DNA from: Spiroplasma alleghenense
Lineage (GTDB): Bacteria; Bacillota_I; Bacilli_A; Mycoplasmatales; Mycoplasmataceae
Direction: 5' to 3'
Length of the DNA: 64,000 nucleotides
NCBI RefSeq assembly: GCF_003363775.1
Contig: NZ_CP031376.1
Coordinates: 1-64,000 of the forward strand
How positions within the stretch are numbered: position 1 is the first letter of the stretch; every line of letters begins with the position of its first letter. Below the pieces are notes generated by a model that did not search any database, was not told the origin of the DNA, and saw only the letters and a program-made list of their open reading frames with translations. The translations under genes and the position numbers were made by a program. This document shows, in pieces, positions 24,651 to 27,552 of the stretch.

Positions 24651-24684
24651 ACCACCAAATGTAATTGGTGGTTTTTATTTTTTT
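24651..24684 (+). terminator. Rho-independent terminator after rpsR
   Basis: Stem ACCACCAA (24651-24658) with TTGGTGGT (24665-24672), loop ATGTAA, then a T-rich tail. Confidence 0.92.
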
Positions 24685-24714
24685 GACCCCCTAATTAAAT
24701 TTATATAGTATAAT
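24683..24714 (+). promoter_or_regulatory. Promoter of the mgtA leader
   Basis: TTGACC (24683-24688) lies upstream of overlapping -10 candidates. TATAAT at 24709-24714 gives a 20-base spacer; TAGTAT at 24706-24711 gives 17. Transcription would start near 24720, just before the leader ORF. Confidence 0.6.
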
Positions 24715-24738
24715 AGAAAAAGTGAAAGAGGTGGTTGT

Positions 24739-24819
24739 ATGAGTCCGTTATCCAGTTTTAATGACGAAGTGCCAATAGATACCAAAAAAATAGATAAATA
24801 TAGCCACAATACTAATTAG
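24739..24819 (+). CDS. Predicted mgtA leader peptide (26 codons)
   Basis: A short ORF starting at ATG 24739 behind a strong ribosome site (AAAGAGGTGG, 24725-24734) and ending at TAG, between the promoter and mgtA. It begins MSPLSSFNDEVPID, a run of acidic residues and prolines, then turns basic and hydrophilic. E. coli mgtL, upstream of mgtA, encodes a short peptide with an acidic/proline run that makes ribosomes unstable at low Mg2+. The position and composition match; the sequence itself is unrelated. It might act as a cis-regulatory peptide. I do not recognise a product family. Confidence 0.6.
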   Translation: MSPLSSFNDEVPIDTKKIDKYSHNTN

Positions 24820-24837
24820 GAGTATTTTTTAATTGTG
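24805..24837 (+). promoter_or_regulatory. Alternative hairpins in the mgtA leader, possible attenuator
   Basis: AATACT (24808-24813) can pair with AGTATT (24821-24826), followed by TTTTTT (24825-24830): a weak terminator shape that straddles the leader ORF stop. CACAAT (24805-24810) can instead pair with ATTGTG (24832-24837), and the two overlap. The stems are short and AT-rich, so the call is tentative. Confidence 0.4.
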
Positions 24838-24870
24838 TTTGTGTGCTTATTTTAAGGAAAAGGAGGCAAC

Positions 24871-27552
24871 ATGCACAAAGTAGTTAAAAAAAGCAAACCA
24901 AGCAAAATCGTCTATAAAAATGATGCTCAGCTTGAAAAGTTTGCTAACCTAAATCAAGGCGAGCTATTGCAAGAATTAGAAATAGCTGGCTTTGGTTTGA
25001 GCAGAAATGAAGTCGAAGAAAAGACTGATAAATATGGTAAAAATAATTTAAAAGACATGAAATATAATTATTTTGCTGAGTTCATTAAAAACTATTTTGG
25101 ACCTTTCAATTTAATTCTTATGGGAATATGCACATATAATTTTATTGAATATGCAAGTACAAAAAGTGTTTTTGATTTAGTTGGAGCAATAATAATTACA
25201 GTTATGGTTTTGATCAGTGGAACAGTGGGTTTCGCTCAGTCAACAAAATCATTTCTTATTTCTAAAAGGCTGAGCTCTGTTGTAACAAATACCGCAACTG
25301 TGATTAGAATGGATGAAGATAGAGAACAAATTGTTAATAAGGCAAACTATCTGAAACTAGTAAAAAAATCTCGAGAAATTGATATTCAAGACTTGCTTCC
25401 AGGGGATGTTATTTATCTTTCGAGTGGTGATATGATTCCCGCAGATGTTAGAATTTTATGAAGTAAGGATTTATTCATTAATCAGTCATCTCTGACAGGA
25501 GAATCAATTCCCGTAGAGAAAAATGCTGATAATAAAGGTGAAACAATGTTGGAGTTCAACAACATATGTTTATCTGGAACAAGTGTAGTTTCAGGAACTG
25601 CGATTGCCGTCGTAATTTTTACAGGTAGCCAAACTTACTTTTCTGCAATTCATCAAATTGTAAGAGAGAAAAAAAGTTTAAATAGTTTTGAAAAAGGGAT
25701 TCGTAAAGTAACAATTATGTTGATGTGCTTTATGCTAATAATGGTACCAATTGTTATCCTAGTTATGGGTGTAAGTAAAGGTCAGTGAACCGAAGGTTCT
25801 TTATTAGCGATTGCGGTTGCGGTTGGACTAACTCCAGAAATGCTCCCGGTAATTGTAAACGCCAATCTATCTCGAGGAGCCAATCAACTAAGTAAACATA
25901 AAGTTGTTATTAAAAATACCAGTTCAGTTCAGAACTTGGGTGCGATGGATGTTTTGTGTACTGATAAGACCGGTACATTAACAAATGATAAAATTGAGTT
26001 AACAAAAATTCATACTCTGGATAACAAATCAAGTGACGATGTTTTAAAACTCTTGTACCTAAATAGTTATTTTCAAACAGGTTTAAAAAATCCAATGGAC
26101 AATGCTGTTTTGGATTATGTTATGGAAGGTAACAAAATTTCGATTAAGAATAAATTTCAAAAATATGATGAAATTCCTTTTGACTTTAACCGAAGAAAAT
26201 TGACAATAATTGTTAACGATGAAAAAAATAATAAAAAAATAATTTGTAAAGGTGCAGTAGAAGAAATTGTTAAAGTTTGTACTAAGGTATATTACCAAGG
26301 AAAAGTTGTCGATTTAGATGAAGAAAAATTAAGACAAATTTTAGGAACTGCAAGCAAAGCGAATAAAGAAGGATTGAGAACAATTGGTGTAGCTTATCGT
26401 GATGAACAAGATCTTCAAAAAGAAAGTTATACTGAGAAAGACGAGAAAGATTTAATCTTTTATGGATTTGCGAGTTTCTTGGATGCTCCAAAACCTTCGG
26501 CATCAAAAATGATTAAATTACTAAAAGATAACGGAGTAGATTTAAAAATTCTAACCGGAGACAATGAAGAAATTACCAAAACAATTTGTAAAAGAGTAGG
26601 TTTGAAAATCAAAGGGATTCTATCCGGAGCAGAAATGGAAAAAATGACCGAATTACAATTAAAAACAGCGGTTGAAAGAACGAATGTTTTTGTTAAATTA
26701 AACCCATTGCAAAAAGTTAAAATCATTGAGGTTTTAAAAAGCAATGATCACATTGTTGGTTTCATGGGTGATGGAATTAATGATGCACCAGTTTTAAGAC
26801 AAAGTGATGTGGCAATATCAGTTCACAATGCAACTGATATTGCAAAAGAAGCTAGTGATATTATTCTTTTAGAAAAATCACTTTTAGTTTTAGAAAAAGG
26901 AATTATCCAAGGACGTAAAATTTTTGGTAATATTTTGAAATATATCAAAATTACCGCATCATCAAACTTTGGTAATGCAGCCAGTGTTGTTATTGGAGCT
27001 GCTTGACTTCCTTTTCAACCAATGATGCCAGTACAAATTTTATTCCAAAATTTAATTTACGATTTTTCACAATTTGCTCTAGCATATGACAAAGTAGATA
27101 AGGAATTCTTGCGAACGCCGCAAAGATGAAATGCCAAGGACATGGTTCCGTTTATCTTGTTTAATGGTCCTGTAAGTAGTATTTTTGACTTAATAACTTT
27201 TGCTATTTTAGCATATGGATATAACTACAATGATACTTCAAAAATGCAAATGTTTAACGCTGGATGATTCATGGTTGGATTAGCAACACAATCATTGGTA
27301 GTTCAAATTATGAGAACTGAAAAATTACCTTTTGTTCAATCAAAAGCAGTTTGACAATTGAACGCCTTCACGGTTTTCACTTGCATTACAGCGATAGCAA
27401 TTCCTTACATTCCTCATGTAAATACAGGATTAGGAATGGTGCACCCAGGCTACACATTTATACCAATAGTAATTGGATTATTAATTATGTACCTAGTTGT
27501 TGCTCAGCTGGTAAAAATGCTTTATATCAAATTATTCAAAAAATGGTTATAA
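24871..27552 (+). CDS. mgtA: Magnesium-translocating P-type ATPase
   Basis: Membrane pump that imports Mg2+ using ATP. The 893-residue product (starting behind AAAAGGAGG) has the MgtA/MgtB-specific TM4 motif LTPEMLPVIVNANLSRGA. The phosphorylation loop CTDKTGTLTN (Asp about 374), the ATP-binding and hinge motifs (TGDNEE, GDGINDAP) and about ten membrane segments are also present. Six or more UGA Trp codons split the frame under the standard code. It stands alone, after a 150-base leader that holds a short ORF. A terminator follows. Confidence 0.94.

Follow-up and report, generated by a model that had tools for sequence, protein, structure and literature searches.

How is the Mg2+ pump gene mgtA controlled in a wall-less bacterium, and does the short reading frame in front of it take part? 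We addressed this question at the mgtA locus of Spiroplasma alleghenense, in a window of 64,000 nucleotides (positions 1 to 64,000 of contig NZ_CP031376.1). In this window, mgtA (24871-27552, + strand, code 4) encodes a P-type Mg2+ ATPase of 893 aa that scores far over the cutoff of the TIGR01524 equivalog model (1006 bits, cutoff 611). The initial annotation had described a 26-codon ORF with a strong ribosome site ahead of mgtA, and both are present: the ORF lies at 24739-24819 (+), encodes MSPLSSFNDEVPIDTKKIDKYSHNTN, follows the strong ribosome site AGAGGUGG, with a Shine-Dalgarno region AAGAGGUGG at 24725-24733 (+), and ends 51 nt before the mgtA start. Computation revealed, besides the ORF, conservation of its peptide, competing helices that covary and an opening of the mgtA site that depends on the codon occupied by the ribosome. 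We propose, with a probability of roughly 0.68, that the leader is a translational attenuator laid out like that of ermC, in which an early ribosome pause, probably at low Mg2+, turns mgtA on.

A TATAAT -10 box is found at 24709-24714 (+), and comparably placed -10-like hexamers occur in 52 of 53 leaders; a weak -35 element, TTGACC, lies at 24683 (+). A consensus promoter scan of the region, taken alone, did not exceed chance (5 matches, 6.1 expected in shuffles). The same genome carries a second MgtA-like ATPase (35% identical; G000:C1:639114-641711, - strand) without a recognisable leader ORF of the mgtA type. Elsewhere in the window are a ribosomal protein L10 leader (RF00557, 41264-41384, +) and the bacterial small SRP RNA (RF00169, 8555-8651, +).

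We searched family and order genomes for MgtA and then compared the upstream regions. Conservation of the ORF in relatives, on which the initial annotation had staked its proposal, is extensive: a leader ORF precedes mgtA at a similar position in almost every clade of the family, with 23-44 codons and a ribosome site mostly near AAAGAGGUGRU. Leader peptides start with MSPLSSFND(E/D)VPI in the window genus and with MSIPS in the Mesoplasma and Mycoplasma mycoides types (these labels, like "Spiroplasma" for leaders, are inferred, partly via kinship). One other clade has MASSPLPVSDSPESR, MATSPLPLEDSPESG and MAKINVLDDNPESV, and further peptides of the family are MTNAITPEPEPGEL, MAEQVNSMSDNPEPY, MTIVNAVVGDFPDPES and MTLVNVVSGEGPESES. 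In genus g8, which has larger Spiroplasma-like genomes, leaders read MLGQQEQSGT, MVVSGYSERK and MSEQMCQL. The ORF is missing at some g8 mgtA copies and at the mgtA of one small genome (G012).

We tested the leader motif in two groups, the window genus and the MSIPS type; in both, each genome has a single copy, located at mgtA in every case. One genome (G001) has a different upstream neighbour gene from that of the window and keeps the leader intact, so the leader belongs to mgtA and not to the rpsR operon. Some upstream regions are of another kind: six g8 leaders (L007, L008, L011, L012, L037 and L038) form a different type in which GAUUUAGGAAUUUU can pair with AAAAGUCCUAAAUU, and some of these hold an 8-codon MDLGILLL frame. 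More distant mgtA homologues also have short leader frames, namely MIELPESKGIK in L078 (G007), where a PES motif appears again, and MEVQSSDRSWIYNVFSISTFK in L083 (G042). No mollicute mgtA leader was described in the subscription-free literature searched, and control of mgtA by a leader ORF in mollicutes appears to be undescribed.

The leader frame is open in all 53 leaders, as follows from their selection as ORFs; in the other two frames, stops number 2.1 and 3.2 on average. A check of synonymous substitutions had been suggested, and in the window genus pN/pS is 0.09 for codons 2-13 and 1.66 for later codons. Two further clades show early values of 0.31 and 0.30 against 1.80 and 1.28 later; in the other clades, substitutions are too scarce or mainly nonsynonymous, and a low early pN/pS is thus not universal. 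Judging from these substitutions, purifying selection acts on the early leader peptide in the window genus; together with the frame kept open in 53 leaders this indicates that the ORF is more than chance. Given its strong ribosome site, the early pN/pS of 0.09-0.31 in three clades and the closure of the other frames, the leader ORF is presumably translated in cells.

We further investigated the RNA around this ORF. Overlapping alternative hairpins had been noted around the leader stop, and they are indeed present (24808-24813 with 24821-24826, and CCACAAU... with ...AUUGUG). The relevant structure, at about 24731-24878, is larger than initially stated. Since the window leader alone folds only mildly better than shuffles (z -1.7), the case for the leader RNA rests on the comparison of species. 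Four regions are involved, all on the + strand. Region 1 (GUGGUUGUAU, 24731-24740) comprises the leader ribosome site and start codon; its pairing appears in the minimum free energy (MFE) fold of the free state and in the covariation of helix 1:2. Region 2 (24796-24821) covers the late leader ORF and its stop codon and can pair with region 1, through 24798-24807, or with region 3. Region 3 (24827-24853), in the spacer, can pair with region 2 or with region 4 (24859-24878), which holds the mgtA Shine-Dalgarno sequence AGGAGG (24861-24866) and the first codons. In the fold predicted with a ribosome at the leader stop, region 4 is sequestered by 24833-24853.

Three helices compete: 1:2 (leader ribosome site with late ORF), 2:3 (late ORF with spacer) and 3:4 (spacer with the mgtA ribosome site and start). 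They were first spotted by eye and tested afterwards, by comparing the pairing energy of each leader's own partners with that of partners swapped between species. Helix 1:2 gave a covariation z of -11.7, and helix 2:3 gave -10.4 (-12.9 with fixed, non-overlapping windows). When each clade was represented by a single leader, the values were -8.7 for 1:2 and -11.1 for 2:3, and none of 20000 permutations was as good for either. Helix 3:4, which would hide the mgtA ribosome site, is found in MFE folds and covaries more weakly (z -1.9 and -3.6). Within the window genus (L001-L003), helix 1:2 differs only by compatible substitutions, G-U to A-U and U-G to U-A.

In the reading we propose, the resting RNA would form 1:2 and 3:4, closing mgtA. 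A ribosome paused on the first codons would cover region 1 and leave region 2 free to take up region 3, which would release the mgtA start; a ribosome that reaches the stop would instead cover region 2, and region 3 would then close region 4. With a ribosome footprint placed on each leader codon in turn, we computed how much energy it takes to open the mgtA start region (ribosome site plus start codon), in a folding model that leaves aside pseudoknots, Mg2+ and kinetics. Averaged over leaders, the mgtA site opens in the model for P-site codons 1-6 (median -1.3 to -3.2 kcal/mol), or up to codon 7, and does not for P-site codons 8-23; in some leaders a ribosome near the very end of the ORF opens it too. 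The mean opening by an early ribosome was -2.54 kcal/mol, against -0.22±0.17 kcal/mol when the spacer and late ORF were shuffled. An explicit exchange of 1:2/3:4 for 2:3 is seen in the folds of L052, L061, L006, L017 and L030, while L016, L018, L021, L022, L025 and L028 switch little or not at all in the model. In the window itself (L001) the switch is modest, from 5.8 to 4.2-4.6 kcal/mol, with 3 of 40 shuffles as good; of its congeners, L003 opens by -3.1 (6 of 40 shuffles as good) and L002 shows no opening by energy. An early paused ribosome is thus predicted to open the mgtA site across the family, more weakly so in the window genus.

The decision could also be made during transcription, with the region 2 helix and a U run, or the AU hairpin of the window genus, acting as a terminator subject to leader translation. 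Many leaders do have a U run after region 2 (L006, L009, L017 and the Mesoplasma type), and both the window genus and L020 have a short hairpin with a U run where the leader ORF stops. We nevertheless find such termination decidedly improbable: the hairpin in the window (AAUACU/AGUAUU, 24808-24826, +, followed by a U run) is weak, built of AU pairs only and was not scored as a terminator, and the covarying region 3 abuts the mgtA start site, 3' of the U run. A role of helix 2:3 as antiterminator was rejected, since region 3 follows the U run and would come too late.

In the attenuator reading, the sensor would be the early leader codons, through acidic and proline residues, a UCC codon decoded by a U34 tRNA, or both; low Mg2+ would slow the ribosome there and adequate Mg2+ would let it pass. 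At codon 5 of the window leader is a rare, conserved UCC serine codon (24751-24753, +), a candidate pausing codon. Of 40 non-redundant leaders, 36 have an in-frame UCC among their first 15 codons, and many of the 40 share it by descent (MSIPS); its position varies by clade from codon 2 to codon 14, and unrelated leader peptides are included. The background is the same, 1.6 UCC per 1000 codons, in window genes and in the later leader codons. Out of frame, UCC arises in one frame via NNU-CCN proline codons and never in the other. A structural role of UCC found no support: its bases and other pyrimidines are paired at equal frequency (0.56 vs 0.56), and it has no consistent partner.

The acidic/proline composition to which sensing had been attributed persists within the window genus and in a number of clades (SPLPxxDSPES, PEPEPGE, GPESES, DFPDPES). 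MSIPS-type leaders and several from Spiroplasma lack it: their first 15 residues include 0-2 acidic residues and 0-1 proline. By this comparison, the early UCC, being near-universal, is a more general feature than acidic/proline runs. The ribosome may pause at UCC, at the acidic and proline residues or at both. Some clades carry the PES/UCC motif at codons 12-14, beyond codons 1-7, which are the only positions from which a modelled ribosome opens mgtA in these clades; a second, queued ribosome would be needed there.

The tRNA set offers one way in which UCC could report Mg2+. The window genome has tRNA-Ser genes for UGA, CGA and GCU, and GGA is not among the 30 tRNA genes found, so decoding of UCC depends on a U34 tRNA. 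M. capricolum and M. mycoides read such codon boxes with unmodified U34 (PMC3711424, PMC10853795). The U34:C3 contact of tRNA-Ser(UGA) is a weak pair whose acceptance could be unusually sensitive to Mg2+, and low Mg2+ might then cause a pause at UCC that opens mgtA. We put forward this superwobble version of sensing as a tentative possibility; if true, these cells would have made an ion sensor out of their reduced tRNA set, which would be a novel way of sensing ions.

The initial annotation had instead proposed that ribosome instability alters the hairpin choice. The competing helices agree with that idea, while the folding model favors pausing over pure drop-off. In an mgtL-like scheme, acidic and proline residues would make the ribosome drop off at low Mg2+, and the vacated RNA would refold and allow mgtA expression. 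The NDEVP of the window genus, with its E/D exchange and synonymous changes, fits this scheme, as do PEPEPGE, DNPEPY, GEGPESES, DFPDPES, LEDSPESG and LDDNPES in other clades, and E. coli mgtL uses EPDP (PMC11282234). However, MSIPS-type and several Spiroplasma leaders are poor in such residues, and the empty leader is predicted to be 1:2-folded with mgtA closed (7.0 kcal/mol, against 4.9 with an early ribosome), so that a ribosome that pauses would serve better as the ON signal than one that has left. The mgtL output, Rho-dependent termination (PMC11282234, PMC11552253), also needs Rho, which the family lacks: none of 60 family genomes exceeded the TIGR00767 cutoff, against 8 of 14 controls, and the weak hits in the family are probably ATPase relatives. 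Drop-off alone is thus rather unlikely to explain the leader.

Mg2+ as the signal of the attenuator is inferred from the identity of the gene and from a relative. In Spiroplasma platyhelix (G058), an M-box (RF00380, 134 bits; L081, 343-513) lies directly upstream of an mgtA homologue, which suggests Mg2+ as the signal for mgtA. Of the 298 genomes of the order, 5 had an M-box, and all 5 belong to another family; its covariance model matched neither the mgtA leaders with this kind of ORF nor anything in the window's family. Within the order, genes of the mgtA kind thus seem to be controlled by either of two leaders, M-box or leader ORF. A leader that monitors general translation, or the supply of amino acids and tRNAs (serine, proline) or antibiotics, would also account for the near-universal UCC, the frequent proline codons and a layout shared with antibiotic-inducible ermC. 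We consider it improbable, since the leader occurs once per genome, at mgtA, and an M-box precedes an mgtA homologue in the same order.

A direct Mg2+-binding riboswitch, with the ORF incidental, would be in keeping with the conserved helices, and direct action of Mg2+ on the E. coli mgtA RNA is still open (PMC11552253). It seems scarcely credible here: the early peptide is selected in three clades, the in-frame UCC sits at varying positions, no Rfam family matched any leader of the mgtA leader-ORF type at gathering or relaxed thresholds, and no conserved unpaired core is apparent across clades. If the attenuator reading holds, Mesoplasma, Spiroplasma and the M. mycoides type would control Mg2+ without a protein regulator, through the ribosome, in a family whose genomes yielded no M-box riboswitch. 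In JCVI-syn3A, the minimal cell from the M. mycoides type lineage, the Mg2+ importer is mgtA (PMC6609329).

We finally compared the leader with known systems. The M-box (ykoK, RF00380) likewise occurs in Mg2+ transporter leaders, the S. platyhelix mgtA homologue included, but unlike the mollicute leader ORF it is a direct RNA sensor, and it was not found in the window's family. In ermC, a short leader ORF precedes an RNA that is closed as 1:2 and 3:4 and open as 2:3, and an early-paused ribosome frees the downstream ribosome site. The mgtA leader shares with ermC-type attenuators the leader ORF, the competing helices 1:2 and 2:3 and, as modelled on the mgtA side, the opening by an early pause; a closed form that includes 3:4 is predicted from its folds. 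It differs in controlling a Mg2+ pump with Mg2+ as the presumed signal, in having no known antibiotic-arrest peptide and in a region 1 that includes the leader's own ribosome site. Like enterobacterial mgtL, it is a short ORF before mgtA, with early acidic and proline residues in some clades, and inefficient leader translation presumably turns mgtA on. Unlike mgtL, with which we saw no sequence relation, its general feature is UCC rather than EPDP, and in a family without Rho its output appears translational. The mgtL route and the standard riboswitch do not apply, because Rho is absent and the M-box was not found in the family. The comparison supports the earlier idea of a leader-peptide control unrelated by sequence to mgtL, with a choice of RNA helices, in wall-less bacteria. 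Altogether, with nothing showing descent from either, the mollicute leader resembles mgtL in its logic and ermC in its build; if our reading is true, ribosome-based Mg2+ sensing before mgtA would have had a second origin, with release of the start site as its output instead of Rho.
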